DNA from: Dehalococcoidia bacterium
GTDB lineage: Bacteria > Chloroflexota > Dehalococcoidia > DSTF01 > JACRBR01
Length of the DNA stretch: 40,575 nt
NCBI GenBank assembly: GCA_021462855.1
Contig: JAJTXQ010000019.1
Span: forward strand, 1-40,575
Direction: 5' to 3'
The translations under genes and the position numbers were made by a program. How positions within the stretch are numbered: position 1 is the stretch's first letter; every line of letters begins with the position of its first letter. Positions 1 to 18,402 of this stretch are shown here, in pieces. A model generated the notes under the pieces. The model was given only the letters and a program-made list of their open reading frames with translations, did not search any database and had not been told where the DNA came from.

Positions 1-121
1 CGAAGAGGTGAACGACGGGCGCCACGTCGAGGGTGATGACGGTCCGTTGTGCCGCTCCTGCGCGGGCGCGGCGTACTACCGGATCATCGACCCGGGCGTA
101 CGGGAGGAGGCGCAGCGATGA
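1..121 (+). CDS. C-terminus of FmdE-like zinc-ribbon protein (5' partial)
   Basis: Frame 2 is open from the window edge and ends in TGA at 119-121, overlapping the next gene's ATG by four bases (ATGA). The visible ~39 residues contain a C-x2-C pair (CRSC) preceded by EVNDGRHVEGDDGP and followed by AGAAYYRI. This resembles the C-terminal zinc ribbon of FmdE-family proteins (formylmethanofuran dehydrogenase subunit E-like), in which a CxxCGE pair should lie just upstream, outside the window. Zinc binding follows from the family; the function in this operon is unknown. The overlap implies co-translation with the molybdoenzyme gamma subunit and chaperone. Too little is visible to exclude another zinc-ribbon family. 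Confidence 0.5.
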   Translation, partial: EEVNDGRHVEGDDGPLCRSCAGAAYYRIIDPGVREEAQR

Positions 122-768
122 AGTGTCCGCGCGTGACCGGCACGTCGAGCGAGCTGCTCGACCCGGCATCCCCCGTGTGGCAGAGCGTGCCCTCCGAGAC
201 GCTGAACCTCACGGCGACACCGCTGGTGATGCAGCCCTCGGAGTACATCCAGAACAAATGGCAGTCGCTCGGGCACGGCGCGACGCCGCAGGTGACGGTC
301 GCCTCGGCGCACAACGGCCAGGAGATCTACTTCCGGCTCGAGTGGGAAGACGCCACCGACGACGGCAACCCCGACGATCTGGCGGCGTTCCCGGACCAGG
401 CCGGTGTGATGATGCCGATCAAGGAAGACGCGACGCTCATGGAGATGGGCACAGCGGACCAGCCTGTGAACATGTGGCTGTGGCGCGCCGATGTCGACCC
501 GCCGTACTACGTCACGGCGACGGGGCGCGGCACGTCGAAGCGGCATCGTGAGTCGCCGCTCGCGGCGAAGGCTGCCCGGGACGGCGGGCGCTGGCGCGTC
601 GTCATCTCGCGGCCGTTCCACGTGTCGCTCGCGGCCGAGGACATCGTGCCGCTGGCGCCGGGGATGGAACACAAGTGCTCGTTCGCGGTGTGGCAGGGGT
701 CGGCGCAGGAGCGCGGCGGCTTGAAGGCATACCAGCAGCGCTGGCTGCCGCTCGAGATCGCATCATGA
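118..768 (+). CDS. Type II DMSO-reductase-family gamma subunit (EbdC/DdhC-like, haem b domain)
   Basis: This 216-residue protein resembles the haem-b-binding gamma subunits of ethylbenzene and dimethylsulfide dehydrogenases, which pass electrons from the beta subunit to an external carrier. It shares GTADxxVNxWxWRAD and a C-terminal WxGSxxERGxxxxYxxxW pattern with the second gamma subunit at 7828-8466. The start at 118 is chosen because of the ATGA overlap with the upstream gene and because MKCPRVTG aligns with the start of the other copy. Earlier in-frame starts would lie within the upstream gene. There is no Sec or Tat signal peptide, whereas the periplasmic EbdC and DdhC carry one. The stop overlaps the chaperone start (ATGA at 765-768). 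Haem ligands (Met/Lys in characterised members) cannot be assigned without an alignment. Confidence 0.8.
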   Translation: MKCPRVTGTSSELLDPASPVWQSVPSETLNLTATPLVMQPSEYIQNKWQSLGHGATPQVTVASAHNGQEIYFRLEWEDATDDGNPDDLAAFPDQAGVMMPIKEDATLMEMGTADQPVNMWLWRADVDPPYYVTATGRGTSKRHRESPLAAKAARDGGRWRVVISRPFHVSLAAEDIVPLAPGMEHKCSFAVWQGSAQERGGLKAYQQRWLPLEIAS

Positions 769-1421
769 CGGTGGCGCCCGAGACGGCCATCGACGACGCC
801 GCCGCATCGCGCTTCGCGATGTACCGCGTGCTCGCGGAAGCGCTCGAGTTCCCGGTGCAGGAGTTCCACGAGTCGGTGCGCGCGGGCATCTTCCGCGACA
901 CCGTCGAAGGCATCGTCGAGAGCCTGCCGTATGCGATCGACGCCGACGTCGCCGCGCTTGAGACGGGTGACGAGTACGTCGATTTCCAGGCGGAGTACAT
1001 CCGGCTGTTCGATGTGGGCACGGTGCGACCGCCGTGCCCGCTGTACGGCGGCGAATGGGGCATGGCGCGCCGCACGGCGATGGAGGATGCGCTGCGCTTC
1101 TACCGATTCTTCGGGATGAAGATGAACGATGAAGCGCACGAACTGCCGGACCACGTCACCGTCGAGCTCGAGTTCATGCAGATGATGGCGTACACCGAGG
1201 GCACCGCGCGCGGACGCGGCGCCGACGAACTGCCGCTCGTGCGGGCGCAGCGCGACTTCCTGACGCGCCACCTCGCGAAGTGGTGGCCGATGCTGCGCCG
1301 CAAGCTGCCATCGCAGCAGCCCTCGCCGTTCTACGATGCGCTCACGGCGATCGCGGAACGGTTCTTCGCCGCCGACCTGGCGTACCTCACCGCCGCCGCA
1401 AAGCGAAGCCCCGGCGGGTAG
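765..1421 (+). CDS. TorD/DmsD-family molybdoenzyme assembly chaperone
   Basis: This 218-residue, mainly helical acidic protein resembles the TorD/NarJ/EbdD family, which binds the apo-alpha subunit and holds it for cofactor insertion. The central stretch YIRLFDVGTVRPPCPLYGGEW corresponds to the family's LF-x-G-x-P-x-PxYxxE region. The start overlaps the gamma-subunit stop (ATGA), so the two are translationally coupled. It is the only chaperone visible for three catalytic subunits, so it may serve several of them (inference). The stop codon lies in the loop of a strong hairpin that also terminates the converging SCP2-like gene. Confidence 0.8.
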   Translation: MTVAPETAIDDAAASRFAMYRVLAEALEFPVQEFHESVRAGIFRDTVEGIVESLPYAIDADVAALETGDEYVDFQAEYIRLFDVGTVRPPCPLYGGEWGMARRTAMEDALRFYRFFGMKMNDEAHELPDHVTVELEFMQMMAYTEGTARGRGADELPLVRAQRDFLTRHLAKWWPMLRRKLPSQQPSPFYDALTAIAERFFAADLAYLTAAAKRSPGG

Positions 1422-1452: not shown

Positions 1453-1896
1453 CTACGCCTTCGGCGGGCGCATCGATGGCGGCACGATCAGGAACCGGTA
1501 CGTCTGCGCGCTGAACAGCGGCCGCCGCCATTTGATGCCAACGCTGAGCTTGCGTTTGAGCATCGCCGCGTAGGGGTTCGCCTGGCCGACGAGCGTTTCC
1601 GTCTGCAGCTTGAGCGTGCCCTTGATCGTGGCGTCGACGTCGGCGTCGATGCCGTTCTTGATGGTCACGCGCTCGCCGTCGAAGACGAGCGTCGCCTGCG
1701 ACGGCGGTTCGGTGGAGTCGAGCCCGAGCTTGCCGTTGATCCTGCGCGCCTCGTCCGCCTTCTTCGGTTCGCCGGCGACGATCGCGTCGATGTGCTGCTT
1801 GAGCAGCCCGGCGAACAGGTTCGCGTCGCCGCCATCGGCGAGGACGACGTCCAGCGCCGGCGCTGGCGCGGCCTCATTGGTCGCTGTGGTGGTCAC
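1453..1896 (-). CDS. SCP2-like sterol/lipid-carrier domain protein
   Basis: This 147-residue protein has a C-terminal half resembling the SCP2 sterol-carrier fold: a beta-rich stretch GERVTIKNGIDADVDATIKG, then a helix with LVGQANPYAAML and KRKLSVGIKW. This matches the family pattern of a strand pair, a 'G-x-NP' helix and a final amphipathic segment. SCP2 domains bind fatty acyl chains, sterols and other hydrophobic ligands. The N-terminal 60 residues are helical and Ala-rich. It begins 13 nt after the stop of the alpha1 gene on the same strand, so the two are very probably cotranscribed. That pairing suggests a role in handling a hydrophobic substrate of alpha1, or in lipid association (inference). 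There is no signal peptide. Confidence 0.55.
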   Translation of the reverse strand: MTTTATNEAAPAPALDVVLADGGDANLFAGLLKQHIDAIVAGEPKKADEARRINGKLGLDSTEPPSQATLVFDGERVTIKNGIDADVDATIKGTLKLQTETLVGQANPYAAMLKRKLSVGIKWRRPLFSAQTYRFLIVPPSMRPPKA

Positions 1897-1909: not shown

Positions 1910-4696
1910 CTACTGTGCCTTTGCGATGGCGACCTTCTGCGCGCGCGGCGTGTGGCTCGGCTGCGCCAGGATTGGCCGGAAGCTCAGGTGCCCGTAGCCG
2001 CCGAGCAGGTGCAACGGCTTGAACGCGCCGGCGACGACGGTCTGGCTGCTGTTCCATCCGGCGAACTGGTACGGCTCCCACGCGTGGTAGATCACCGCCT
2101 GGCCCGGCTGGATGGCCGGAGAGATCTTTGCGTGCACCTTGAAGCCGCCGACGTCATTCGTCACGTCGACGATGTCGTGGTCCTTGATGTTCGCTTCGAG
2201 CGCATCGCGCGCGCTGATGTAGACGACGGGCTCACCGCGCTGGAGGTTGAGCAGCGTCTTGTTCGACCGGAAGATCGCGTGGATGCTGTGGCGCGTGTGG
2301 CCGCCGGTCAGCGCGATCGGGTAGTCGCCGCCGCCGTTCGGGTTCTCCTTGTGCACCGGCAGCGCCTCGCCGGCGTCGATGTACCACGGGTGGTCGAGGT
2401 AGAACTGCTGGCGGCCCGTGAGCGTCGGCCACGGCTCCTTCTCCTCGACGAACCACTTGAGCGGCGCGAGCGCGTCGTCGTCCGGCATGTCGGAGCAGAT
2501 CGCGGTGATCGGCCCGTAACTCCCCGGCGACTTGACGCGGACCGCGCCCTTCTCGGCGATTTCGTCCCAGCGCGTGCCGTTGAGCGGCTGTGACATGCTG
2601 ATCGAAACGTCGAGCGCCTTCGTGGCGTCGCCTTCGCTGAACTCGCCGTTCATGCTCCAGTTCTCGTAGATCTGCGTCAGGTCGTGCTGCTGGCCGAGGT
2701 TGTCGGTGTACGGCTGCTCCTCGCGCTGACGGGCGCGCTCCTGGATCGCCTTCGCGAGCCGCGCCATGATGTCGAACTCGGCCGCCGATTCGAAGAGCGG
2801 CTCCACCGCCTGCTCGCCGACGCAGATGTACGGCACGAGCGACTGGCAGAACTTGATGCCCGCCTTCTCGTGCCATCCCGCCGCGGGCAGGATCATGTCC
2901 GCATGCATCGCCGAGCTCGACATGCGGAACTCCCACGTGACGATGAAGTCGAGCTCCGCCCACAGGTTCTCGCGGATGATGTGCGGCGCCGGCCAGCGGC
3001 GGAGCGGGTTCATGCCCGTGTACATCATCACGCGCGGCGTCACGCCGGTGGGCATCCAGTTGTTGTCGAACGCCTCCTTCGCGTACTCCGCGGGGGTCTT
3101 CGGGAGCGCGGGGTCGTGGAATTTCACGTTGTTCACGACCTCGCGGAAGCCCTTGTCGTGCGCGTAGAGCCAGGCCATGGTCGGCGCGTTGCTCGACATG
3201 CGTCCGGCCATCGTCTTCATGACGTTTTCGATGTCGCGGACCTTCGGGCGCTGGCCGGGTTCCGGCGCTTGGCCGATCATCGCGAGCTGGCCCTTGTCGT
3301 AGTTGAGCGGAAGGTTCCACCAGGCGCCGATGCGCAGTCCGCCGCCCTGCTTGCCCGTGTGACCGCCGAGCGCCGAGATGAGGATCATCGCGCGCTGGAA
3401 GAGGTCCATGTGGTAGTGCTTGCAGGCGCCCCACGACGCGAAGATCGATGCCGCCTTTGCGCCGGCGTAGCCACGCGCCAGCTGGCGCACCGTGTCAGCG
3501 TGCACGCCCGTGGTCTCCTGCACCTTCTCGGGCGTGTAGTCTTCGAGCTGGTCGAGCAGTCGTGCGAAGACGGGGCGCACGCTGACCTTCGATCCATCGG
3601 CCAGCGTCACGTCGAAGCGGCCGCGCAGCGCCGGGTCGACGTCGCCCAGCACGAGCGATGCGACGGGGGGGTCGATGCTGCCCTGCGCCTCGGCGAGCGC
3701 ATTGGTCTTCGTGTCCCAGAAGTAGAACCGGCTCTCGCTGCCGCCTTCCTGGACATCGGACTGGCGGAGGAAGCGCGCGTTGTCGTCGCGGACGAGGAAG
3801 GGCAGGTCGGTCTGCTCCTTCACGTAGTCCCACTTGCACAGATCCTCATCGATCATGACCTTCGCGATGCCGAGGCCGAGCGCGGCGTCGGTGGCGACCC
3901 GCAGGTTGACCCACAGATCGGCGTGCATCGTCGACGGGTTGTAGTCCGGCGCAATCATCACGACCTGCGCGCCGCGGTAGCGCGACTCGAGCATGAAGTG
4001 CACGTCGGGGATGCGCGTGTACGCGGGGTTGCCGAGCCAGATGAGGATGTAGTCGGAGTTGCAGTAGTCGTCGGATGTGCCGTCGGTGTTGAACAGGCCC
4101 CACGTCTGGATCGCGCCCATCGGCAGGTCGCCCACACTCGCCCACTCGTCGAGCGAGGTGGTGCCGATCAGTGACATGAGGCGGAACTGCGCCGGCGTGC
4201 CGGGTCCGAAGTCGATGTTGGTCGTGCCCATGTCGTAGACGATGGCCTCGGGGCCATGTGCGGCGATGGTGTCGAGCAGCTTGTCGGCGATCGTCGTGAG
4301 CGCCTCGTCCCAGGAGATGCGCTCCCACTTGCCGCTGCCGCGCTCGCCGACGCGCTTCAGGGGGTACTTGATGCGCGTCGCGTCGTACATCAGGTCGGAG
4401 TAGACCATGCCCTTCTGGCAACCGCGCGGGTTGAAGTCGGGCAGGTGGTCGCCGGAGGCTTCGTAGATCGGGTTCTGCTCCTCGCGGAGGACGATGCCGT
4501 CCTTCACGAACAGGTTGAGCGTACACGCGGCGATGCAGTCCGCCTGGTTGCAGGTGCCCTTGACGACCTTGTCCCACGACCACTTTTCGCGGAACAGATC
4601 TTCGGCGGCCTTGTAATCGGGGATGCTCGCACCGGCGTCCGACACGAGGCGCCGCGTGCGCGGGGCGGGCGTCTTCGCGCGGGTATGCACAACCAT
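1910..4696 (-). CDS. Type II DMSO-reductase-family catalytic (alpha) subunit 1, molybdopterin oxidoreductase
   Basis: This 928-residue bis-MGD enzyme has the NarG/EbdA architecture. An N-terminal [4Fe-4S] (FS0) motif has C49, C54, C58 and C93 (RGCQKG). The conserved GDLPMGAIQTWG places the Mo-ligand Asp at about residue 190, as in YCDLPxxxPQTWG of NarG. C-terminal dinucleotide-binding elements follow (TGGHTRHSIHAIFRSN; GGYGHLSFRP). The first FS0 ligand position, His in type II enzymes and in the two paralogues here, appears to be Cys with C-x4-C-x3-C spacing. No twin-arginine signal or hydrophobic N-terminus is evident, so a cytoplasmic location is inferred. The SCP2-like gene follows closely; no beta or gamma gene is adjacent in this operon. 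The substrate is unknown. It is divergent from alpha2 across a 258-bp regulatory region. Confidence 0.88.
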   Translation of the reverse strand: MVVHTRAKTPAPRTRRLVSDAGASIPDYKAAEDLFREKWSWDKVVKGTCNQADCIAACTLNLFVKDGIVLREEQNPIYEASGDHLPDFNPRGCQKGMVYSDLMYDATRIKYPLKRVGERGSGKWERISWDEALTTIADKLLDTIAAHGPEAIVYDMGTTNIDFGPGTPAQFRLMSLIGTTSLDEWASVGDLPMGAIQTWGLFNTDGTSDDYCNSDYILIWLGNPAYTRIPDVHFMLESRYRGAQVVMIAPDYNPSTMHADLWVNLRVATDAALGLGIAKVMIDEDLCKWDYVKEQTDLPFLVRDDNARFLRQSDVQEGGSESRFYFWDTKTNALAEAQGSIDPPVASLVLGDVDPALRGRFDVTLADGSKVSVRPVFARLLDQLEDYTPEKVQETTGVHADTVRQLARGYAGAKAASIFASWGACKHYHMDLFQRAMILISALGGHTGKQGGGLRIGAWWNLPLNYDKGQLAMIGQAPEPGQRPKVRDIENVMKTMAGRMSSNAPTMAWLYAHDKGFREVVNNVKFHDPALPKTPAEYAKEAFDNNWMPTGVTPRVMMYTGMNPLRRWPAPHIIRENLWAELDFIVTWEFRMSSSAMHADMILPAAGWHEKAGIKFCQSLVPYICVGEQAVEPLFESAAEFDIMARLAKAIQERARQREEQPYTDNLGQQHDLTQIYENWSMNGEFSEGDATKALDVSISMSQPLNGTRWDEIAEKGAVRVKSPGSYGPITAICSDMPDDDALAPLKWFVEEKEPWPTLTGRQQFYLDHPWYIDAGEALPVHKENPNGGGDYPIALTGGHTRHSIHAIFRSNKTLLNLQRGEPVVYISARDALEANIKDHDIVDVTNDVGGFKVHAKISPAIQPGQAVIYHAWEPYQFAGWNSSQTVVAGAFKPLHLLGGYGHLSFRPILAQPSHTPRAQKVAIAKAQ

Positions 4697-4954: not shown

Positions 4955-7831
4955 ATGCCCCCGACCAAGACCCCGGTACGTGCCCGGCGCAACGGCAACG
5001 GCAAGGCCGCCGTGGCGCCATCGCCGGTGCGGGCGCGCCCCCGCACCACCACCCCCCAGCCCTCGGAAGAGGCATACCGCGAGCGCATCAAGTGGTCGAA
5101 GTGGGCTTGGGGCAGCCATTGCGTGGACTGCTACCCGAGCAACTGCCCATTCCGCGTGTACGTCGGCAAGGACGGCGAGGTATGGCGCGAGGAGCAGTCG
5201 GGCACCTACGACACCGTCGAGAAGGGCGTGCCGGACTTTAACCCGGCGGGATGCCAGAAGGGCGTCACGTGGCACAAGCTGCTCACCGGCAAGGAGCGCG
5301 TCCTGAAGCCGCTCAAGCGCGCCGGCGAGCGCGGCAGCGGCAAGTGGAAGGAGATCTCGTGGGACCAGGCGCTCACCGAGATCGCTGACCACATCATCGA
5401 TGCGATCGAGGAGCAGGGGCCGGAGTCCGTCATCCGCATCGGCGAACCGGCGGAGGGCGGCACGCAGTCGCTGATCTACGGCAGCGCGATCGTGAACCAG
5501 ATCGGCGGCACGGTCACCGACGTGCAGGCCGAGATCAACGACTTCTCACCGGGCATCTACGTCACGTTCGGAAAGTTCGACCCGGCCGCCAGCTGCGACG
5601 ACTGGTTCCACACGGACCTGATGCTGTGCTGGCAGATCAACCCCGCGTACACGTCGATCCCGTGGTACCACTTCATCGCCGAGGGCCGGTACCGCGGCGC
5701 CGAGGTGGTGGTGGTCGCGCCGGACTTTAACCCGACGGCGCCGCACGCGGACATGTTCGTGCCGGTGCGCATCGGCACCGACGTGGCGCTGGCAAACGCG
5801 ATGTGCCAGGTGATCATCGAAGAGGACATCGCCGACTGGAAGTTCGTGCGTGAGCAGACGGACCTGCCGCTGCTGGTGCGCGTCGACAACGAGCGCTTCC
5901 TGCGCGGGAGCGAAGTCGATGGCGGCCGCGAGGACCAGTTCTACTGGTTCGACGAGAAGACGCAGTCCGTCGTCGAGGCGCCGCGCGGCACGTTGGCGCT
6001 CGGCAAGCGCAAGCCGGCGCTCGAAGGCGTGTTCAAGGCGAAGCTCAAGGACGGCACGACGGTCAAGGTGACGACGGCCTTCGCGCTGTTGAAGAAGATG
6101 CTCAACCGCGACTACACGCCGGAGAAGGCGCAGAAGATCAGCGGCGTCAGTCCGGACGTGGTGCGCACGCTCGCGCGCAAGGCGGCGACGAAGCGCACGC
6201 GCATGCTCATGGGCTGGAACTCGGGCAAGTACTACCACGGCGACCTCATGGAGCGTTCCATGATGCTCGTGCTGGGGCTCACCGGGAACTGGGGCAAGAA
6301 GGGCACGGGCGCGCGCTCGTGGGCGGTCGGCATGTTCGACGGCCAGTTCTTCGCGCCGAACAAGCCGGCGCCGGGCCAGGAGATCACCGCGGCGGCGATG
6401 GCCGGCCGCGACGCGATGATGGACGCGCTGCGCGCCGAGGACCCGACGCTCACCGAGGAGATGATCGGGCACGAGATGGCGTACCGCGGCGCGGCGATGG
6501 GCGGCACGGTCCCGCCGGCGTTCTTCTGGTACTACCACTGTGGCTACAAGGAGATCTGGAACAAGAAGACGTGGGGCGACGTCGGCATGAAGCGGACGTT
6601 CGACCAGTACTTCGAGGAAGCGCTGGCGAAGGGCTGGTTCACCGGCACGGTGCAGCCGGCGGCGACGCAGGAGCCGCGCGTCATCTTCGAGGTCGGTTCG
6701 AACTTGCTGCGGCGGACCCGCGGCGGCCAGAACATGCTGATCAAGAACCTGTGGCCGAAGCTGAGCTGCATCATCACGATCGACTGGCGCATGAACACGA
6801 CCGCCATGTGGTCGGACTACGTGCTGCCGGCCGCACACCACTACGAGAAGCCGAACTTCTGCTACTCGACGCCGCACATCATGCACCTGACGTTCTCCGA
6901 CCGGGCGGTGCCGCCCCGCGGCGACTCGAAGGAGGAGTTCGAGATCGCGGTGCTGCTGGCGAAGAAGATCGAGGAGCGCGCCAAGAAGCGGAAGTTCACG
7001 CAGTACACCGACGCGCACGGCATCCCGCACAACCTGGAAGGCATGTCCGACCGGCTGACGCTCAACGGCTACTACGACACGTCGGACAAGCTGATGGACG
7101 AGATGGTGCGCGACAGCGCCGTCATGGGGAACCTGCCCGAAGGCACGACGCTCGACACCATGCGCGAGAAGGGGTACGTGCGGTTCACCGGCTGGGGCAT
7201 GTCGCCGATGGCGATCGGCCAGTCGTCGGACATCAAGGAAGACGAGACGCACGCGCCGTTCCGCTGGCACACCGAAAAGAAGGTGCCGTTCCCAACGCTG
7301 ACGCGGCGCGCGCAGTTCTACATCGACCACGACTGGTTCATGGAGGCGGGCGAGCAGTTCGCCGTGCACAAGGAGACGCCGGCGCAGGGCGGCGACTACC
7401 CGTTCCACCTGACGAGCGGTCACCCGCGCTGGTCGATCCACTCGATGAACATGACGAACAAGATCATCCTGAACACGCACCGCGGGCACCCGTTCTGCTA
7501 CATCAACACGAGCGACGCAGAACAGCGCGGGGTTGCCGATGACGAGGTCGTCGAGCTGTACAACGACATGGGCAAGATGAAGGTGGCGCTGCGCGTGACG
7601 CCTTCGGTCCGGCCGGGCGAGCTCATCATCTACAACGGGTTCGAACCCTACCAGTTCGACGATTGGTACGACCCGGCGAACGTGGAGCCAGGCATGGTGA
7701 AGTGGCTGGCGTTCGCTGGTGGTTACGGGCATCTGCGCTACCGGGGAATCCACTGGCAGCCGGTGCCCATTGACAGGGCGATCCGTCTGGATGTCCGCAA
7801 GATCGCGGAGAAGGAGGCAGTGGGCGCATGA
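4955..7831 (+). CDS. Type II DMSO-reductase-family catalytic (alpha) subunit 2, molybdopterin oxidoreductase
   Basis: This 958-residue bis-MGD catalytic subunit has the FS0 ligands expected of type II enzymes: H55-x3-C59-x4-C64 and C100 (AGCQKG). INDFSPGIYVTFG places the Mo-ligand Asp at about residue 196. C-terminal signatures include LTSGHPRWSIHSMN and AGGYGHLRYRG. The N-terminus is basic (MPPTKTPVRARRNGNGK) but lacks a twin-arginine motif followed by a hydrophobic stretch, so export by Tat is not supported. The stop overlaps the gamma2 start (ATGA at 7828-7831) and beta1 follows, giving an alpha-gamma-beta set like ebdABC but in a different order. It clearly resembles alpha3 more than alpha1. 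The substrate, and whether it oxidises or reduces, cannot be read from sequence. Confidence 0.9.
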   Translation: MPPTKTPVRARRNGNGKAAVAPSPVRARPRTTTPQPSEEAYRERIKWSKWAWGSHCVDCYPSNCPFRVYVGKDGEVWREEQSGTYDTVEKGVPDFNPAGCQKGVTWHKLLTGKERVLKPLKRAGERGSGKWKEISWDQALTEIADHIIDAIEEQGPESVIRIGEPAEGGTQSLIYGSAIVNQIGGTVTDVQAEINDFSPGIYVTFGKFDPAASCDDWFHTDLMLCWQINPAYTSIPWYHFIAEGRYRGAEVVVVAPDFNPTAPHADMFVPVRIGTDVALANAMCQVIIEEDIADWKFVREQTDLPLLVRVDNERFLRGSEVDGGREDQFYWFDEKTQSVVEAPRGTLALGKRKPALEGVFKAKLKDGTTVKVTTAFALLKKMLNRDYTPEKAQKISGVSPDVVRTLARKAATKRTRMLMGWNSGKYYHGDLMERSMMLVLGLTGNWGKKGTGARSWAVGMFDGQFFAPNKPAPGQEITAAAMAGRDAMMDALRAEDPTLTEEMIGHEMAYRGAAMGGTVPPAFFWYYHCGYKEIWNKKTWGDVGMKRTFDQYFEEALAKGWFTGTVQPAATQEPRVIFEVGSNLLRRTRGGQNMLIKNLWPKLSCIITIDWRMNTTAMWSDYVLPAAHHYEKPNFCYSTPHIMHLTFSDRAVPPRGDSKEEFEIAVLLAKKIEERAKKRKFTQYTDAHGIPHNLEGMSDRLTLNGYYDTSDKLMDEMVRDSAVMGNLPEGTTLDTMREKGYVRFTGWGMSPMAIGQSSDIKEDETHAPFRWHTEKKVPFPTLTRRAQFYIDHDWFMEAGEQFAVHKETPAQGGDYPFHLTSGHPRWSIHSMNMTNKIILNTHRGHPFCYINTSDAEQRGVADDEVVELYNDMGKMKVALRVTPSVRPGELIIYNGFEPYQFDDWYDPANVEPGMVKWLAFAGGYGHLRYRGIHWQPVPIDRAIRLDVRKIAEKEAVGA

Positions 7832-8466
7832 AAGCCAAGAAGGTCTCGAATGTGAGCGCGTTGCTCGAGCCATCGGCTGCCGGGTGGCAGAAGGTGGACC
7901 GGGAGGTCGTCGACCTGGCGGGCATGCCGCTCCACGTGCAGACGTCGCGCTACGTGCGGACGGTGTGGGCCGACAAGCTCGTCGGCAAGGTGCGCGCGGT
8001 GTCGGTGCGCGCCGCGCACGACGGGGAGCGCCTCGCCGTGCAGCTGGAGTGGAACGACGACACGCAAAACACGGAGTTCGCCGAGCGCCTGTTCCCGGAC
8101 GCGGCGGCCGTGATGTTCCCGTGCAACGGCGACGCGCCCATCGTCACGCTGGGCACGGCGGACGCGGGCGTGAACCAGTGGTACTGGCGCGCGGACTTGG
8201 CGCAGCCGGAGAACCTGGTCGCGCACGGCCTGTCGACGGAGACGGCGGCGGACGGCGCCGCGCTCGACGGCGCTGGCAAGTGGAGCGATTCGCGCTGGTC
8301 CGTGGTGCTGAGCCGGCCGCTGAAGGCGAAGGGCTCGGACAACGTGAAGCTCGCGCCGGGCAAGACCGTGAAGGTCGGGTTCAGCATCTGGGAAGGCAGC
8401 AACCGCGAGCGGGGCGACATCCGCTCGTACTCGCGGCAGTGGCACGAGCTGGCGCTCGAGGCTTAG
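7828..8466 (+). CDS. Type II DMSO-reductase-family gamma subunit 2 (haem b domain)
   Basis: This 212-residue paralogue of the gamma subunit at 118-768 shares GTADAGVNQWYWRAD and a C-terminal WEGSNRERG with a following SYSRQW. Family members bind one haem b and relay electrons from the beta subunit's last cluster. It overlaps the alpha2 stop by four bases, and beta1 follows after 9 nt, so the three are expected in stoichiometric amounts. The N-terminus (MKAKKVSNVSALLEPS) has no signal peptide, unlike periplasmic EbdC/DdhC/SerC. This fits a cytoplasmic alpha2-beta1-gamma2 complex. Confidence 0.82.
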   Translation: MKAKKVSNVSALLEPSAAGWQKVDREVVDLAGMPLHVQTSRYVRTVWADKLVGKVRAVSVRAAHDGERLAVQLEWNDDTQNTEFAERLFPDAAAVMFPCNGDAPIVTLGTADAGVNQWYWRADLAQPENLVAHGLSTETAADGAALDGAGKWSDSRWSVVLSRPLKAKGSDNVKLAPGKTVKVGFSIWEGSNRERGDIRSYSRQWHELALEA

Positions 8467-8475
8467 GAGGCGACC

Positions 8476-9552
8476 GTGGCTAAGAATGGGAAAACAGCGG
8501 CACCGGCGGTCACGCACAAGGCGCAAAACCAGCTCGCGATGGTCTTCGACCTCAACAAGTGCATCGGCTGCCAGACGTGCTCCGTCGCGTGCAAGACGCT
8601 GTGGACGCGCGACGAAGGCACCGACTACCAGTGGTGGATGACCGTCAACACGCTCCCGGGCAAGGGTTGCCCGATGGACTGGGAGCAGATGGGCGGCGGC
8701 TACCGCGACGGCGTCCCGCAGGAGGGCACGCTGCCGACGCGCGACGAGTTCGGCGGCGGCTGGGACTTCAACTACGACGAGGTCTTCTACCAGGGCAAGG
8801 GCAACACGGTGCACCTGCAGCCCGTCGGCAAGAAGCCGACGTGGGGCCCGAACTGGGACGAGGACCAGGGCGCCGGCGAGTACCCGAACGCGTACTACTT
8901 CTACATGCCGCGCCTGTGCAACCACTGCACGCACCCGGCATGCGTCGAGGCGTGCCCCCGCGGGTCGATGTACAAGCGCCCGCAGGACGGCATCGTCCTC
9001 CGCGATGAGGAGAACTGCCGCGGCCTCCAGTTCTGCGCCGAGGCGTGCCCGTACAAGAAGATCTACTTCAACTACGTGAAGAAGGTCTCACAGCACTGCA
9101 TCATGTGCTTCCCGCGCATCGAGCAGGGCGTGGCGCCGGCGTGCGCGCGCCAGTGCCCGGGCCGGCTGGTGTTCGTCGGCTACCTCAACGACGCGGAACG
9201 CCCGATCCACAAGCTGGTCAACAAGTGGGAGGTGGCGCTGCCGCTCCACCCGGAGTACGGCACCGACCCGAACATCTTCTACATCCCACCGCTAAGCCCG
9301 TACCGGCTCAAGGAGGATGGCAGCCTCGACACCGAGACGCCGCGCATCCCGAACGAGTACCTGGAGCGGCTGTTTGGCCCGCGGGTGCACAAGGCGCTCA
9401 ACACCATGAAGTCCGAGCTCGCAAAAGTGCGGGCCGGAGGCAAGTCCGAACTCCTGGATACGCTCATCGTCTACCGCTGGCACACGCTGTTCGAGCCGTT
9501 TACACGCGACCCTGTGGAGGTGGGCGGACCGCAAACGGTTCAGGTTCTGTAA
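8476..9552 (+). CDS. Type II DMSO-reductase-family iron-sulfur (beta) subunit 1
   Basis: This 358-residue NarH/EbdB-like electron-transfer subunit has four cysteine groups: C29/C32/C35/C39 (KCIGCQTCSVACK), C148/C151/C156/C160, C181/C187/C191 and C208/C211/C223/C227. In the third group the second cysteine is replaced by Leu (C-R-G-L). NarH has Trp there, which gives three [4Fe-4S] and one [3Fe-4S] cluster. The GTG start follows GGAGG (8465-8469) at normal spacing. The surrounding KxLWTxxEGxxYxWWxxVNTxPG matches NarH closely. No signal peptide is present, as is normal for beta subunits, which are co-exported when the alpha subunit is exported. It is probably the partner of alpha2. Confidence 0.92.
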   Translation: MAKNGKTAAPAVTHKAQNQLAMVFDLNKCIGCQTCSVACKTLWTRDEGTDYQWWMTVNTLPGKGCPMDWEQMGGGYRDGVPQEGTLPTRDEFGGGWDFNYDEVFYQGKGNTVHLQPVGKKPTWGPNWDEDQGAGEYPNAYYFYMPRLCNHCTHPACVEACPRGSMYKRPQDGIVLRDEENCRGLQFCAEACPYKKIYFNYVKKVSQHCIMCFPRIEQGVAPACARQCPGRLVFVGYLNDAERPIHKLVNKWEVALPLHPEYGTDPNIFYIPPLSPYRLKEDGSLDTETPRIPNEYLERLFGPRVHKALNTMKSELAKVRAGGKSELLDTLIVYRWHTLFEPFTRDPVEVGGPQTVQVL

Positions 9553-9713: not shown

Positions 9714-12626
9714 ATGAGCCGGCTAGTAACGCGCCGCTCGTTCATCAAGGGCACCGGCGCCGCGATCGCGGCGATTGGCATGAGCCGGCTGGTGCCGCTG
9801 CCATCGTTCGACAGGATCATGACGACGGCCGCGCGCACGTACTCGTCGTTCGAGGACGTGTACCGGCAGAAGTGGTCGTGGGACAAGGTGACGTGGGGCA
9901 CGCACCTGGTCGACTGTTACCCCGGATCGTGCTCCTGGCGAGTCTACACCAAGGACGGCGTCGTCTTCCGCGAGGAGCAGGGCGCGCAGTACCCGCAGGT
10001 CGAAGACCGCGTGCCGGACATGAACCCCCGCGGCTGCCAGAAGGGCGGCTGCTTCTCCGAGGTGATGTACGGCTCCGAGCGGATCACCTATCCGCTTCGC
10101 CGGACCGGCGAGCGCGGGGAAGGCAAGTGGGAGCGCATCACCTGGGACGAGGCGATGACGACGATCGCGGACGCGATCCTCGACGCGGTCGAGAGCCACG
10201 GGCCGGAGTCGATCATCCACGAGTTCGGCTCTGGCGAAGGCGGGGTCGTCCATGGCGCGCTGCCGAGCTGGCGGCTGACACGCCTGCTGGGTGGCACGGT
10301 CCTCGACAGCAACGGCCTGACGTCGGACTTCAACGTCGGCATGTACGAGACGTTCGGGAAGTTCCAGTTCGCCTCGTCGATCGATGACTGGTACCACGCT
10401 GACCTGATCCTGATGTGGCACATGAACCCGCTCTACACGCGGATCCCGTCGGCGCATTACATCATGGAGGCGCGGTACAACGGCGCGCGCATCGTGTCCA
10501 TCGCGCCCGACTACAACGCGTCGACGATCCACGCGGACCTGTACGTGCCGGTGGTGCCGGGCACGGATGCGGCGCTCGCGCTCGCCGTGTCGAAGATCGT
10601 GATCGATGAGGGCGCGTACAACGCGGAGTTCGTGAAGGAGCAGACCGACCTGCCGCTGCTCGTGCGGTCTGACACGCGCCGCTACTTGCGCCAGACCGAT
10701 GTCGAGGGCAAGGGCCGGGAGGATCAGCTCTACTTCTGGGACGCGAAGGCAAACGAACTGGCGCGCGCGTCGCGCAAGACGCTCGACCTCGGCGACACGG
10801 ACCCGCAACTCGAGGGCACGTTCAGCGTGAAGCTCGCCGACGGGTCTGAAGTCGAGGTGCAGCCGGCGTTCGCGCTGTTGCGCGAGCACCTGGAGCAGTA
10901 CACGCCGGAGCACGCGTCGCAAACGACGGGCACCGCCGCGGGCACGATCCGCCGCATGGCGAAGATGGTCATCGCGGCGAAGCGCATCCACATCCTGCAG
11001 GGCTTCAATACGCCGAAGTACTACCACGGCGACCTGATGGAGCGCGGGATGGCGCTGCTCCTGGCGCTGACCGGCAACTTCGGGCGGCAGGGCACCGGCA
11101 TGCGCGGCTGGAACAGCAGCCAGCTCGTCATGGCGAACAACCTCAAGGCCAAGCCGGGGTTCGAGGGGTTCATGGAGCTGGCGACGAATCAGCTCGACCT
11201 CGAAAAGAAGCTGCACCACGAAGACCCCGACCTCACGGCGGAAATGCTGGCGATCGGTGTCGAGCGCGAGGAGGCGACGAACAGCGCGCTCTCGCCGCTG
11301 CGGATGAGCGGGATGATGATCCCGCCGCACTTCTACTGGTACTGGCATGCGGGCTACAAGGATGTCTGGAACAAGCGCGAGTGGGCCGACACCGGCATGA
11401 AGCGCCGCTTCGATGAGTACTTCCAGGAAGCGGTGGACAAGGGCTGGTGGGACGGTGTCGTGCAGCCGGCGCAGGACCAGACGCCGCAGGTGCTGCTCGG
11501 CGCATGCGGCAACACGCTGCGCCGCACGCGCGGCGGCGCGAAGCAGCTGCTCAACCATGCGTGGCCGAACTTCAAGCTCGTGGTCACGACTGACTACCGC
11601 ATGAGCGCGACCGGGCGCCAGTCGGACATCTTCCTGCCCGCGGCGGCCTATTACGAGAAGACGGACTTCCGCTTTCCGACAGCGCACCTCAACTTCCTCG
11701 TCTTCACCGAGAAGGCGGTCGAACCGCCGGGCGAGGCGAAGGAGGAGTGGGAGATCAACTGGCTCCTCGCGAAGAAGATCGAGGAACGGGCGAAGGCGCG
11801 CGGGGTCAACACGTACAAGGACCGGCGCGGCCGTGAGTTCAAGTTCTCCGGATTGCTCGACCGCTACTCCTACAACGGCGAGGTCGGCCCGAGTGAGGGT
11901 GAGAAGATCGCCGAGGACCTCATCTTCGACACGGTGCGCGCGGGTGCGCTGCCCGAGAAGACGAACCTCAACACGTTCCGCAAGAAGGGCATCGTGCGGT
12001 TCACGCACGTCGGCATCGATGCGGTCGGCATGAACATGGCGACGGACATCGAGAAGGACAAGACGATCAATCCGCTCCAGTGGCACACGCGGGACAAGCT
12101 GCCGTACCCGACGTATGCTCGGCGCATCCAGTTCTACATCGACCACGAGTGGTTCCTGGAAGCGGGAGAGCAGCTGCCCGTGCACAAGCCGACGCCGAAG
12201 ATGGGCGGCGACTTCCCGCTGACGATGACGAGCGGGCATCAGCGCTGGTCCATCCACTCGATGTGGGTGGTCAACCAGGTGCTGGCGCGCACGCACCGCG
12301 GGCACCCGACGCTATGCATGAACCCCGATGACATGAAGCAACGGGGGATCGCCGACGACGACACCGTGCTGGTGCACAACGACATGTCGTCGTTCAAGGT
12401 ACGGGTGAAGATCTCGCCATCCTGCCGCCCGGGGCAGGTGGTGATCTACCACGCGTGGGAGCCGTACCAGTTCCCCGGCGGCAAGTCGTACGACGTCGCG
12501 ATCCCGGGACTCATCAAGTGGCTGCACCTTGCCGGGGGCTACGGCCATCTGCGCTATTACCGCTGGAACTGGGTTCCGCAGCAGGTTGATCGCGCTGTCT
12601 CCGTGGAAGTGGAGAAGACGGCATGA
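9714..12626 (+). CDS. Tat-exported type II DMSO-reductase-family catalytic (alpha) subunit 3
   Basis: This 970-residue bis-MGD enzyme is closely related to alpha2. It begins with a twin-arginine signal, TRRSFIKGTGAAIAAIG (residues 6-22), so it should be exported folded. FS0 ligands are H64-x3-C68-x4-C73 and C108. The Mo-ligand Asp is at about residue 205 (TSDFNVGMYETFG). C-terminal MTSGHQRWSIHSMW and AGGYGHLRYY are typical. The 9714 start is preferred because it preserves the complete Tat signal; an ATG at 9780 would remove it. The stop overlaps the nitrilase ATG (ATGA, 12623-12626), and permease and beta2 follow with similar coupling. No gamma or membrane-anchor gene is in this half of the unit. 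The substrate is unknown; neighbours suggest an organic nitrogen compound (inference). Confidence 0.9.
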   Translation: MSRLVTRRSFIKGTGAAIAAIGMSRLVPLPSFDRIMTTAARTYSSFEDVYRQKWSWDKVTWGTHLVDCYPGSCSWRVYTKDGVVFREEQGAQYPQVEDRVPDMNPRGCQKGGCFSEVMYGSERITYPLRRTGERGEGKWERITWDEAMTTIADAILDAVESHGPESIIHEFGSGEGGVVHGALPSWRLTRLLGGTVLDSNGLTSDFNVGMYETFGKFQFASSIDDWYHADLILMWHMNPLYTRIPSAHYIMEARYNGARIVSIAPDYNASTIHADLYVPVVPGTDAALALAVSKIVIDEGAYNAEFVKEQTDLPLLVRSDTRRYLRQTDVEGKGREDQLYFWDAKANELARASRKTLDLGDTDPQLEGTFSVKLADGSEVEVQPAFALLREHLEQYTPEHASQTTGTAAGTIRRMAKMVIAAKRIHILQGFNTPKYYHGDLMERGMALLLALTGNFGRQGTGMRGWNSSQLVMANNLKAKPGFEGFMELATNQLDLEKKLHHEDPDLTAEMLAIGVEREEATNSALSPLRMSGMMIPPHFYWYWHAGYKDVWNKREWADTGMKRRFDEYFQEAVDKGWWDGVVQPAQDQTPQVLLGACGNTLRRTRGGAKQLLNHAWPNFKLVVTTDYRMSATGRQSDIFLPAAAYYEKTDFRFPTAHLNFLVFTEKAVEPPGEAKEEWEINWLLAKKIEERAKARGVNTYKDRRGREFKFSGLLDRYSYNGEVGPSEGEKIAEDLIFDTVRAGALPEKTNLNTFRKKGIVRFTHVGIDAVGMNMATDIEKDKTINPLQWHTRDKLPYPTYARRIQFYIDHEWFLEAGEQLPVHKPTPKMGGDFPLTMTSGHQRWSIHSMWVVNQVLARTHRGHPTLCMNPDDMKQRGIADDDTVLVHNDMSSFKVRVKISPSCRPGQVVIYHAWEPYQFPGGKSYDVAIPGLIKWLHLAGGYGHLRYYRWNWVPQQVDRAVSVEVEKTA

Positions 12627-13675
12627 AGCTGAACCTCGTGGCGATTCAGGCGAAGCCGGAAATGTCGGACTACGCCGACGCGGAAGCGTTTTACCGCAAG
12701 ATGGCGAGCCTCATGGAGCGGGCGTCGAAGGAGGTCGACTTCTCGGCGCCGACGCTGGTCGCGTATCCGGAGGGCATCGGCCTGCCGCTGGCGTTCGTCC
12801 CGCAGACGTACCACCAGATCGGCGATGCGAAGACGATCGCGCAGGTGCTCGTGCGCGCGATCCCGAAGAACCTGCCGCGGTTCCTCGGCGCGCTGGTGCG
12901 CTACCACACGTCGGTGATCCGCACGGTGTTCCTCGAGACGGCGCTGGAGGCGGAGGACATCTACACGGCGACGTTTTCGACGCTGGCGCGGGAGTACGGC
13001 GTGTACCTCTGCGCGGGCTGCATCTACTTGCCGCACATCGAGGATGAGGCGGTGAAGGGCCGGCACGCGACGACCCGCAAGGTGTACAACCAGTCGTACC
13101 TCTACAACCCGCACGGCGTCTGCCTGCGCCGCACGCCGAAGGTGAACCTGGCGCCGCCGACGGAGCCGCGCTTCGGGTTCAGCCCCGGCAACCGCGCCGA
13201 CATCCTTCCCGTCGACACGAAGATCGGCCGGCTCGGCACGCTCGTCTGCTACGACGCGTTCCACCGCAGCCTGGTTGAGCGCATGGACGCCATGGGCGTC
13301 GAAGTGCTCATCAACCCGTCGCACAACGAGCGGCGATGGAACGTGCCGGCGGGGTTCAACCCGGGGATCACCGTCGGTGAGGCGTGGATCCAGCACGGGC
13401 TGCCGGCGATGATCCAGGGGCGCGAGCATCTGCGCTTCGGCGTGTCGCCGATGCTCGTCGGTCCGGTGTTCGACGTGCGCTCGCACGGCCAGTCGCGCAT
13501 CTGCCAGAACATCGACGCGACGGGCGACTTCGGCCGCACGCTGCTGGCCGAGGCGTCGGTGGACGAGGAAGACGTGATCTACGCGACGGTCGAGGTCGGC
13601 ATGCACACGTCGCCGAACGGCCGGCTATACGACGAAGCCGACGAGCCGATCGTCCGCCGCATCAAGGGGGCGTGA
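12623..13675 (+). CDS. Nitrilase-superfamily carbon-nitrogen hydrolase
   Basis: This 350-residue cytoplasmic enzyme has the Glu-Lys-Cys triad: E50 in YPEG, K173 in RTPKVNLAP and C209 in LVCYDAFH. The superfamily hydrolyses nitriles, aliphatic amides, N-carbamoyl amines and related C-N bonds through a Cys thioester; the branch cannot be fixed by eye. A 60-residue region between the Glu and Lys motifs (about 95-155) is longer than in compact amidase types. It overlaps alpha3 by four bases and the permease by one (TGATG), so the ribosome passes directly between them. Embedding a C-N hydrolase between the alpha and beta subunits of a molybdoenzyme is not seen in the characterised type II systems known to me. 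Confidence 0.85.
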   Translation: MKLNLVAIQAKPEMSDYADAEAFYRKMASLMERASKEVDFSAPTLVAYPEGIGLPLAFVPQTYHQIGDAKTIAQVLVRAIPKNLPRFLGALVRYHTSVIRTVFLETALEAEDIYTATFSTLAREYGVYLCAGCIYLPHIEDEAVKGRHATTRKVYNQSYLYNPHGVCLRRTPKVNLAPPTEPRFGFSPGNRADILPVDTKIGRLGTLVCYDAFHRSLVERMDAMGVEVLINPSHNERRWNVPAGFNPGITVGEAWIQHGLPAMIQGREHLRFGVSPMLVGPVFDVRSHGQSRICQNIDATGDFGRTLLAEASVDEEDVIYATVEVGMHTSPNGRLYDEADEPIVRRIKGA

Positions 13676-14991
13676 TGGCAGTCCGCTCGGCCCGCATCGA
13701 ATCGCTCACGCAGTCGGCGGCAATCGAGGCGCCGCGCGAGTACAGCGCGTTCGGCCTGGCGATGCTGCTCGGCGGGCTTTCGATGAGCCTGCTCGTGTTC
13801 CTGCCCGGCGCGTACCTCGTGCCGGCGCTGACGCTGCGCGGCGCAATCCTGGCGGCGGTGCTGGGTAGCGCGGCGGGCGCGGCGCTGCTCGCCGGCGTGG
13901 GCGTGGTGGCGGCGCGCAGGCGGCGCAACACCGTCGGCCTGCTGTCGACGACGTTCGGCATGCCATCGGCGCTGCCGTTCGCCGTGCTGCTGTTCGTGCG
14001 CCACACCGCATGGGCGCTGTTCATGATCGCCTTCGCATCAGAGGTCGCGATGTCGGTGCCGGGGCTCGGCGGGCCGCGCTGGCTGTGGGTGGTGGCGCTG
14101 TCCGCGCTGGCGCTGGCGCTGGCGCTCATGCCGGTGCACCTGTTCGTGAACCGGTGGATGGCGTGGTTCGCGTTCTGGGTGGGCCTGCTGATGATCATCC
14201 TCATCACGCTCACCGGTATCACGACGTACGGCCTCCCGGTGCTGCACGATGCTGACGGCATGGGCGGCTGGCCGACGTGGGCGCAGGGGTTCGACCTCAT
14301 CGCCGCGCTGCCGCTCGTGTGGGCGCCGATCGTGGCCGACTACGCGATGGACGCGCGCCGCCCGCGCGACGCCGCGGCGGGCATCGCGGGCGGCGCGGGC
14401 GTGGTGACCGCGTGGTACGCGATCATCGGGCTGCTCTGGGTATTCACGGTGAACGCGCGCGACGTCGCCGGGTTCATCACGGCGTTGCCCATCGGCGTCG
14501 GCGGCCTGCTGATCGTCGTCGCGCTCGAGGCCGATGCGATCGCCGCGAACGTGCGTGGCGCATCGCTCGCGGGCGGGCGGTTCGGGTACCGGTACTTCAC
14601 GCCGGCGCTCATTGCCTCGGGCATCATCGCCGCCGCGCTTGCGGTGGCGTGGGACGGATTCGAGATCGAAGACGCGCTGGCGACGCTGGGCGCGGTCTTT
14701 CTGCCGCTGATGACCGTGGTGCTCGCGCGCGAATTTGTCGGCGCGGCGCCGCGCGCGTTTGCCTGGCTCGCGTGGCTCGCCGGCACGCTGTGCTACGGCT
14801 GGATTAACCCCGGCGACTGGGACGCCTGGCGCGACGCGATGGAGTTCATCTTCGCGACGGTGCTGCAGCTACCGTTCCCGCTTGGCGGCGAGCTCACCTC
14901 GATCCCGGCGACGGCCGTGTCGTTCGCCGTGGCGCTGGTGGTGTACGCCGCGGGCGCGGCCGCCGGGCGCATCACGAGGAGGTCAGCGTAA
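13675..14991 (+). CDS. NCS1-like (cytosine/purine/hydantoin permease family) transporter
   Basis: This 438-residue integral membrane protein has about twelve hydrophobic segments and a short cytoplasmic N-terminus. It looks like the NCS1 family (CodB, PucI, Mhp1): an early glycine-rich helix (LAMLLGGLSMSLLVFLPGAYLVP) and a central segment (LPLVWAPIVADYAMDARRPRDA) typical of cation-coupled nucleobase or hydantoin importers. The start overlaps the nitrilase stop (TGATG), and the stop overlaps the beta2 ATG by one base. Placement inside the enzyme unit suggests import of the substrate, or of a product made outside by alpha3, for the nitrilase. Family assignment is by overall pattern; another APC-superfamily transporter is possible. 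Confidence 0.7.
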   Translation: MAVRSARIESLTQSAAIEAPREYSAFGLAMLLGGLSMSLLVFLPGAYLVPALTLRGAILAAVLGSAAGAALLAGVGVVAARRRRNTVGLLSTTFGMPSALPFAVLLFVRHTAWALFMIAFASEVAMSVPGLGGPRWLWVVALSALALALALMPVHLFVNRWMAWFAFWVGLLMIILITLTGITTYGLPVLHDADGMGGWPTWAQGFDLIAALPLVWAPIVADYAMDARRPRDAAAGIAGGAGVVTAWYAIIGLLWVFTVNARDVAGFITALPIGVGGLLIVVALEADAIAANVRGASLAGGRFGYRYFTPALIASGIIAAALAVAWDGFEIEDALATLGAVFLPLMTVVLAREFVGAAPRAFAWLAWLAGTLCYGWINPGDWDAWRDAMEFIFATVLQLPFPLGGELTSIPATAVSFAVALVVYAAGAAAGRITRRSA

Positions 14992-16064
14992 TGGCCGACC
15001 GAGCGCCGACACCCGAACGCCAGCTGGCGATGGTCTTCGACCTGAACAAGTGCCTGGGCTGCCAGACGTGCTCCATCGCGTGCAAGACCCTCTGGACGGA
15101 CCAGGAGGGCATGGAGCACATGTGGTGGAACGTGGTCAACACGCTGCCCGGCGACGGCTCGCCGCGGAAGTGGATGGAGACGGCCGGCGGGTTTGACGCC
15201 GAAGGCAAGTCGCGGCCGAGCGTCCTGCCGACGAGCGAGGAATTCGGCGTCGCGTGGAAGTACAACTACGACGAGGTGTGGAACAGCTCTGACACCGTGC
15301 TCTCGAAGGACCGCGACACGAAGTGGGGCATGAACTGGGACGAGGACGAGGGCGCGGGACAGTGGCCGAATAACTACTTCTTCTACCTCCCGCGCATCTG
15401 CATGCACTGTACGCGTCCGGCGTGCCTCGAGGCGTGCCCGCGCACGGCGATCTACAAGCGGGAGGACAACGGCATCGTCCTGATCGACGAGGAGCGGTGC
15501 AACGGCTACCGCTTTTGCGCCGAGGCGTGCCCGTACAAGCGCATCTACTTCAACCCGCAGCGCAAGCTGTCGCAGAAGTGCGTGCTGTGCTTCGCGCGGG
15601 TCGAGCAGGGCGTGGCGCCGGCGTGCATGCGCCAGTGCCCCGGCCGCATCCGCTTCTTCGGGTATCTCGATGACCCGGACAGCGCGGTGTACAAGCTGGT
15701 CAACGAATGGAAGGTGGCGATCCGGCTGCACCCGGAGTTCGGCACCGAGCCAAACCTGTACTACGTGCCGCCGCTGGCGCCCTCGCGGCTCACCGATGAC
15801 GGCGAGATCGACGAGTCGCAGCCGCGGATCCCGGACGAGTATCTCGAGTGGCTCTTCGGGCCGGGCGTGCACGACGCGCTGAACATCCTGAAGGCGGAAA
15901 TGGAAAAGCGACGCAACGGCGAACCGTCCGAGCTCATGGACATCCTGATCGCGTACAAGCACGGCGACATGTTCGGCGGGTTCACGAATGACCCGGGCGT
16001 GCTCGACCGCAAGCCCGACAGCGTGAAGACGGGCGCGCTCAACTCACCGAAGACCAGGTCGTAA
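14991..16064 (+). CDS. Type II DMSO-reductase-family iron-sulfur (beta) subunit 2
   Basis: This 357-residue paralogue of beta1 has cysteine groups at C21/C24/C27/C31, C137/C140/C145/C149, C170/C176/C180 and C197/C200/C212/C216. The third group has Tyr where the second Cys would be (C-N-G-Y), consistent with a [3Fe-4S] centre as in NarH/EbdB-like proteins. GAGGAGG (14976-14982) provides a strong ribosome-binding site. It is the probable partner of alpha3 and would be exported with it through the alpha Tat signal. It is separated from alpha3 by the nitrilase and permease, an unusual order for an alpha-beta pair that is normally adjacent. Confidence 0.92.
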   Translation: MADRAPTPERQLAMVFDLNKCLGCQTCSIACKTLWTDQEGMEHMWWNVVNTLPGDGSPRKWMETAGGFDAEGKSRPSVLPTSEEFGVAWKYNYDEVWNSSDTVLSKDRDTKWGMNWDEDEGAGQWPNNYFFYLPRICMHCTRPACLEACPRTAIYKREDNGIVLIDEERCNGYRFCAEACPYKRIYFNPQRKLSQKCVLCFARVEQGVAPACMRQCPGRIRFFGYLDDPDSAVYKLVNEWKVAIRLHPEFGTEPNLYYVPPLAPSRLTDDGEIDESQPRIPDEYLEWLFGPGVHDALNILKAEMEKRRNGEPSELMDILIAYKHGDMFGGFTNDPGVLDRKPDSVKTGALNSPKTRS

Positions 16065-16066
16065 CC

Positions 16067-16085
16067 GGGGCGTCTACGACGCCTC
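16067..16085. terminator. Hairpin between convergent beta2 and mobA
   Basis: GGGGCGTC-TAC-GACGCCTC forms an 8-bp stem with one G-T pair on the plus strand and includes the mobA stop codon. No T-run follows, so it is a weak intrinsic terminator at best. Its position between convergent genes supports a 3'-end role. Confidence 0.4.
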
Positions 16086-18208: not shown

Positions 18209-18402
18209 CGGATCGGCTCCGGGACCGACCAGGGTCTTGCCCGTAGAGTACGGGCGGCGCGCGGCGGGCAGGTAGGGCCGTAACGGACACGCGCGGGGGC
18301 CGATCGGCCGTGCCAAAACGGGCCGCTTGTGGGGCCCGCGCGCCATGTGTCAAGATCAAAGAGCTCTTAGTTGCAGGACGAACCAATCGAGGAGGTCCCA
18401 CC
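18209..18402. promoter_or_regulatory. Divergent promoter region between moaA and the pirin gene
   Basis: This 194-bp gap lies between divergent genes. It contains the 12-bp palindrome GGCCGATCGGCC at 18298-18309, whose 11-bp core is shared with the alpha1/alpha2 promoter region, and GGCCCTA on the minus strand at about 18272-18278. A strong GGAGG (18391-18395) lies 7 nt before the pirin ATG. No clear -35/-10 pair is seen. Confidence 0.45.

Follow-up and report, generated by a model that had tools for sequence, protein, structure and literature searches.

A conserved Cys in place of the FS0 His in a clade of ethylbenzene dehydrogenase-like molybdenum enzymes from Chloroflexota

The His ligand of FS0, the first iron-sulfur (Fe-S) cluster, is apparently fully conserved in molybdenum (Mo) enzymes of subfamily II (PMC8840923). 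The HxxxCxxxC motif is described as conserved in type II enzymes, with two unspecified haloarchaeal NarG sequences as exceptions (PMC8301774). In nitrite oxidoreductase (NXR) and nitrate reductase (NAR), the non-Cys ligand of FS0 is either Asp or His (PMC8387239). EbdA of ethylbenzene dehydrogenase (EbDH; PDB 2ivf) is periplasmic, and the gamma subunit that accompanies PcrA of perchlorate reductase (4ydd) carries heme c (PMC8840923); by sequence, EbdA has the FS0 His in H-x3-C-x5-C and PcrA in H-x3-C-x3-C. The steroid C25/C26 dehydrogenases (S25DH/S26DH) of Sterolibacterium are also among the closest known systems (PMC6016249, PMC7411048, PMC11061730). Here, we analyze a gene, alpha1, in a 40,575-nucleotide stretch of a Dehalococcoidia bacterium (GCA_021462855.1, contig JAJTXQ010000019.1, positions 1 to 40,575; hereafter the window), in which Cys occupies the position of the FS0 His. 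The literature that we searched, which excluded most subscription papers, contained no natural all-Cys FS0 in subfamily II; nor was the motif found to be widespread in characterized enzymes, which would have spoken against the original prediction of a His-to-Cys replacement.

Alpha1 is the catalytic subunit of a type II, EbDH-like Mo-bis(pyranopterin guanine dinucleotide) (Mo-bisPGD) enzyme and has kept the Mo-ligand Asp and the fold. The reading frame lies on the minus strand, the plus strand of 1910-4696 being interrupted by stops, and its GC content at third codon positions (0.94) is typical of real genes here. The FS0 motif reads Cys49-x4-Cys54-x3-Cys58-x34-Cys93 (KGTC49NQADC54IAAC58 ... 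NPRGC93QKG) and the Mo-ligand region GD190LPMGAIQTWG. Among sequences in the PDB, EbdA and PcrA are nearest to alpha1. An AlphaFold2 model built from 42 sequences (predicted local distance difference test score 87.4, predicted template modeling score 0.89) was compared with known structures by VIA-align 2. It superimposes best on PcrA (Z 52.6, root-mean-square deviation 2.0, 845 aligned) and EbdA (Z 52.2, root-mean-square deviation 2.1, 37% identity over 871 aligned residues), followed by NXR-A (Z 40.8) and NarG (Z about 38). Both EbdA and PcrA share the Mo-ligand Asp with alpha1, and PcrA also has a Lys beside FS0. The phylogenetic place of alpha1 is likewise among type II alpha subunits. A dedicated chaperone, a heme b gamma subunit and a beta subunit with ligands for three [4Fe-4S] clusters and a [3Fe-4S] cluster are present, a gene set shared with the EbdA system. 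The score against the ebdA equivalog model NF042978 is 629, below the cut-off of 2000. Alpha1 departs from type II enzymes in the fourth FS0 ligand, which is Cys49 instead of His. NXR-A (7b04) also lacks the His, whose place is taken by Cys (PMC8387239), but its second ligand is Asp (3Cys/1Asp), whereas alpha1 has Cys54 there and Cys at all four sites. The same substitution is present in E. coli NarG-H49C (PDB 3ir5), where it was engineered; in alpha1 it is natural and conserved.

The position of Cys49 was evaluated in an alignment of 94 rows comprising the paralogs of the window's own genome, 74 of the 79 relative loci (five broken or truncated loci were dropped), EbdA, PcrA and outgroups. 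The relatives are the best 80 of 422, which may leave out Cys variants at a greater distance, and the search covered collections other than the viral, phage, plasmid and E. coli ones. Column 49 holds Cys in nine rows, His in 82 and a gap in three distant outgroups. The His of L038, counted among the 82, is an artefact of the alignment: this row really reads C-x3-C-x5-C, and a neighboring His was set in the column. Cys49 therefore stands where the His rows have their ligand, as originally predicted, and the Mo-ligand Asp190 is indeed kept (invariant in 42/42 aligned sequences). At the codon level, TGC in alpha1 is two base changes away from the CAC or CAT of the His types. An annotation or frameshift error behind Cys49 was ruled out, as the residue recurs in ten copies across several assemblies. 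Among the 82 rows, 103 columns are occupied by one residue in at least 96%, and only three of these differ in the Cys clade, namely 49 (His to Cys, 9/9), 609 (Tyr to His, 9/9) and 803 (a Trp/His split). The four Cys, Asp190 and Lys95 are retained in all nine aligned Cys copies, although the invariance of Cys49 within the clade is weak evidence because 318 of 693 columns are invariant there. No replacement His is conserved between residues 30 and 100 in the Cys clade, His84 being variable. The search for another conserved His ligand thus came up empty near the motif and returned only His609, far off in sequence, which is fixed in the clade where 80/82 other rows have Tyr. This change at 609 may have co-evolved.

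Spacing turned out to be a separate matter. It had been proposed that a different spacing sets alpha1 apart, but H-x4-C-x3-C is found in 67 of 68 His-bearing relatives (the 20-row sister clade described below plus 47 of 48 further His rows; the exception, L130, has x3-x5). In L037 (VTHIRANCISAC; VTHIRANC), among the closest His-bearing relatives, the ligand differs from alpha1 and the spacing is the same. The spacing change is therefore older than the change from His to Cys, and the x4 spacing was discarded as a diagnostic of the Cys variant. The two neighboring paralogs alpha2 (GSHCVDCYPSNC) and alpha3 (GTHLVDCYPGSC) carry the FS0 His and the expected His-x3-Cys; their full motif is H-x3-C-x4-C, not the H-x3-C-x3-C of PcrA, and spans the same length from ligand 1 to ligand 3 as C-x4-C-x3-C in alpha1.

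Cys is found in all 10 gene copies that hold this stretch, from nine genomes or records: alpha1 itself, the own-genome paralog L010 (on C13, 72% identical to alpha1), L059, L061-L066 and a G007 fragment on C228. Six of them (L059, L061-L064 and L066) are labeled Chloroflexota or Chloroflexi (REEB247, NC_groundwater_1625, B27T3L8, SZUA-185, B85T3L11, RBG_16_68_14). L065, 77% identical, lies on a 3.6-kb contig labeled Thermoleophilia (Actinomycetota), which may reflect transfer or a misbinned contig. The 11 other alpha paralogs of the window's own genome with a readable N-terminus all have His, and L022 is partial and lacks the N-terminus; in all, this genome (G000; 3.0 Mb) has roughly 14 alpha genes of type II. 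When 343 genomes of the class were scanned for the x4 motif, 25 matches turned up in 22 of them (nine Cys, 15 His and one spurious match with a stop). The eight genomes with a Cys match all belong to two families within the order of the window, and the His matches come from two other families. The corresponding x3-x5 scan of 336 genomes gave 13 matches (two Cys, both in genome G040, nine His and two spurious ones with stops).

In a tree calculated without the motif columns, the nine Cys rows form one clade (Shimodaira-Hasegawa-like approximate likelihood ratio test 100), sister to a clade of 20 His rows (L037, L070, L074, L077, L078, L087, L092, L097, L106, L129 and 10 more), and both are nested inside a 66-row clade. 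The suggestion of a separate subfamily is supported in so far as the Cys rows form one clade; the x4 spacing of CxxxxCxxxC extends beyond it. The Sterolibacterium genes in this comparison (L111, L113 and L134), which come from metagenome-assembled genomes and do not include a characterized S25DH or S26DH sequence, fall into the same large x4 clade as alpha1 but bear His and a twin-arginine translocation (Tat) signal. The G040 pair, L038 (1501-4194) and L226, has C-x3-C-x5-C and is placed among His rows with the x3-x5 spacing of EbdA. The mixture-model tree, calculated for 58 rows, requires two changes to Cys, and a single origin of all Cys rows was rejected (the constraint costs 578 log units; approximately unbiased test, p = 1.24e-64). 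Hence, the Chloroflexota clade represents one origin of Cys from His and G040 a second, independent one. Three long, NXR/Nar-like alpha subunits retain Asp in the Mo-ligand column; L047 and L058 have CxxxDxxxC as in NXR-A, and L056 has CxxxCxxxC, possibly a third all-Cys FS0.

The surroundings of FS0 differ between the Cys clade, its sister and the remaining His rows. Site 60 is Leu in 9/9 Cys rows, Ile, Leu or Phe in 20/20 sister rows and Trp in 43/48 other His rows. We equate this site with the NarG Trp that is said to bond FS0 and perhaps to raise its potential (PMC8301774). All Cys rows retain Lys95, and 20/20 sister rows have Met, Ala or Ser instead. The sister rows also have a Cys at 97, four residues after the fourth ligand (GCPxGC and similar), and retain the FS0 His. 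A Tat signal is present in 0/9 Cys rows, in 0/18 scorable sister rows (of 20) and in 38/44 scorable other His rows (of 48), the remaining six of which have an Arg pair with a weaker hydrophobic stretch. Among the own His paralogs, alpha3 alone (1/11) carries one. It seems that export and Trp60 disappeared before the Cys clade and its sister parted; afterwards, the Cys clade seems to have changed the FS0 ligand and the sister the nearby Lys. In this order of events, the x4 spacing would have come first, the Tat signal and Trp60 would have been lost next, and His49 would have become Cys last.

The genes around alpha1 (Table 1) include the partners expected for a type II enzyme. No beta gene adjoins alpha1 in the window, where both are found farther along, past alpha2 and alpha3; the second is the best window match of the beta subunits beside alpha1 in L062, L064 and L066. 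In these three loci, gamma, beta and chaperone (delta) genes follow alpha1; L063 has gamma after alpha1, where the available sequence ends. Across twelve beta subunits (one a fragment), among them those encoded next to alpha1 in L062, L064 and L066, 14 cluster Cys are invariant and the fifteenth is absent in the fragment only; the ligand change is confined to FS0. In the window and in L059-L061, a gene for a sterol carrier protein 2 (SCP2)-like protein follows alpha1. Such a protein occurs once each in eight of 18 genomes of the order, namely those with the Cys enzyme, and always near alpha1. Directly upstream of alpha1 in L066 (3507-7466), two flavin adenine dinucleotide oxidoreductases of the CrtO/phytoene-desaturase type flank an SCP2-like gene, and a further weak SCP2 match, 0.2 bits under the cut-off, immediately precedes alpha1. 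The motifs of the two flavoproteins, GFLHNVHC and GFHHNLHA, are near GF[L/R]x[N/S][T/L]HA, the consensus for covalent flavin mononucleotide in delta-24 steroid desaturase and limonene dehydrogenase (PMC11061730). The pair is present in four genomes of family f4 (that of L066 and G014, G015 and G016), a likeness to the steroid dehydrogenase systems. The SCP2-like gene and the flavoprotein pair point to a probable lipid or isoprenoid substrate.

Table 1. Coordinates of alpha1, its key codons and neighboring genes in the window.
Feature	Position	Strand	Remarks
alpha1	1910..4696	minus	catalytic Mo-bisPGD subunit of 928 aa with four-Cys FS0 motif; lacks Tat signal
Cys49 codon	4550..4552	minus	subfamily II FS0 His position; from alignment
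Cys54 codon	4535..4537	minus	FS0 ligand 2; from alignment
Cys58 codon	4523..4525	minus	FS0 ligand 3; from alignment
Leu60 codon	4517..4519	minus	Trp in 43/48 His relatives outside the branch
Cys93 codon	4418..4420	minus	FS0 ligand 4; from alignment
Lys95 codon	4412..4414	minus	basic residue beside FS0, retained in alpha1; role per PMC8301774
Asp190 codon	4127..4129	minus	Mo ligand; invariant in 42/42 aligned sequences
His609 codon	2870..2872	minus	fixed in Cys clade, Tyr in 80/82 others
gamma subunit	49..768	plus	EB_dh heme b; near contig edge; likelier start Met at residue 24
NarJ/TorD-type chaperone	675..1421	plus	type II enzyme chaperone; TIGR03482 over cut-off
SCP2-like gene	1453..1896	minus	adjoins alpha1, co-directional
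alpha2	4955..7831	plus	His-type paralog, H-x3-C-x4-C, no Tat signal
gamma subunit after alpha2	7828..8466	plus	
beta subunit	8476..9552	plus	TIGR03478 over cut-off; 15 cluster Cys kept
alpha3	9714..12626	plus	His-type paralog, Tat signal, Trp at site 60
carbon-nitrogen-hydrolase family gene	12623-13675		overlaps alpha3 end; between alpha3 and second beta
second beta subunit	14991..16064	plus	TIGR03478 over cut-off
MobA-like and MoaA-like Mo cofactor genes	16074-18346	minus	adjoin enzyme cluster

Work by Rothery et al. in 2010 reportedly found that FS0 still assembles in NarG H49C, that its potential drops by 500 mV or more, and that the enzyme is inactive. The FS0 potential in NarGHI is given as -55 mV (PMC8840923), and the loss of activity upon the His-to-Cys change in NarG is described in PMC8301774. 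The change is therefore not neutral in a relative, which leaves three options for alpha1: it copes with an uphill electron step, other changes compensate, or it works with a couple of lower potential. With export apparently lost, an acceptor of lower potential in the cytosol is plausible. With a probability of roughly two in three (0.68), we interpret alpha1 as the catalytic subunit of a cytosolic EbDH-like enzyme with a lower-potential [4Fe-4S] FS0 on four Cys that is probably a lipid or isoprenoid hydroxylase. The parts of this interpretation differ in strength. A natural, clade-wide change from His to Cys is supported with very high confidence. Ligation of FS0 by Cys49, 54, 58 and 93, with Cys49 as a ligand, is predicted from the alignment with high confidence. 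Confidence is moderate for an FS0 potential that would lie below that of His-type enzymes and modest for a role in cytosolic lipid hydroxylation. As is established for EbDH and the steroid dehydrogenases, the enzyme may use water to hydroxylate a C-H bond of its substrate at Mo, the substrate perhaps being a lipid or isoprenoid that SCP2 presents. Electrons would leave Mo via FS0, which without Trp60 and with four Cys should sit at a lower potential than the His type, pass the unchanged FS1-FS4 and heme b, and end at a cytosolic acceptor.

Several observations weigh against this interpretation. Ten of the 11 own His paralogs also lack a Tat signal and the sister clade lacks it while keeping His, so that Tat loss alone does not bring Cys. 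To judge from the inactive NarG mutant, exchanging the ligand alone would leave a His-type enzyme without activity. Alpha1 scores 920.9 with TIGR03479, the curated type II alpha model, and stays below the cut-off of 984.75, as does alpha2 (875.3); alpha3 (1010) passes. His609 could in principle serve as a replacement FS0 ligand. As for the substrate, the co-occurrence of SCP2 adds little beyond adjacency, as the complete type II set is present in these very eight genomes, and at E 1e-60 the family of the window gave no match to the flavoprotein pair.

Alternatively, Cys49 might bind FS0 while changes in the second sphere compensate, keeping potential and physiology His-like, in which case the ligand would have drifted neutrally in a tolerant site. 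The two independent changes from His to Cys and the four-Cys motif of the NXR-like L056 suggest that Cys is tolerated, and substitutions specific to the clade are many (17 positions). We nevertheless consider this unlikely, as virtually every other row retains His, NarG loses activity when its His is changed to Cys, and the exchange of Trp60 for Leu would, by the published argument, lower the potential and not raise it (PMC8301774). It is less probable still that Cys49 is not a ligand and that FS0 relies on three Cys (as a [3Fe-4S] cluster, or as a [4Fe-4S] cluster with a non-protein ligand) or on a His elsewhere. Cys49 aligns with the His of x4 relatives such as L037, and two lineages independently took Cys, a cluster ligand. 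The candidate for such a His is His609, as no other His is both fixed in the clade and almost missing outside it, but it lies more than 500 residues away in sequence. A decaying or non-catalytic paralog that has lost FS0 would fit the score below the TIGR03479 cut-off; with the four Cys, Asp190 and Lys95 kept in nine aligned copies, a normal coding bias, a well-predicted fold and a full operon in the f4 genomes, it is very improbable.

Extending the preferred reading of a low-potential, four-Cys FS0, Chloroflexota might hold a whole branch of cytosolic, anaerobic C-H hydroxylases that lost export, then Trp60 and then His49, the latter two being features that are argued to raise the FS0 potential. 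Electrons from SCP2-presented lipids or isoprenoids would pass to a low-potential cytosolic acceptor, or the enzymes might work in the reductive direction, and the all-Cys FS0 would have evolved at least twice in EbDH-like enzymes. We regard this scenario as tentative and rather doubtful as a whole.

The alpha1 clade, which belongs to uncultured Chloroflexota, departs both from the view that the FS0 His is apparently fully conserved (PMC8840923) and from the view that His and Asp are the non-Cys options at this cluster (PMC8387239). Nature has made the very change that inactivated the laboratory NarG mutant, and replacing His by Cys at the first Fe-S cluster is expected to alter how electrons exit the active site. 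A natural, conserved all-Cys clade together with a second, independent case offers a direct test of why FS0 has a non-Cys ligand, for which the His-bearing relatives of equal spacing provide matched controls.

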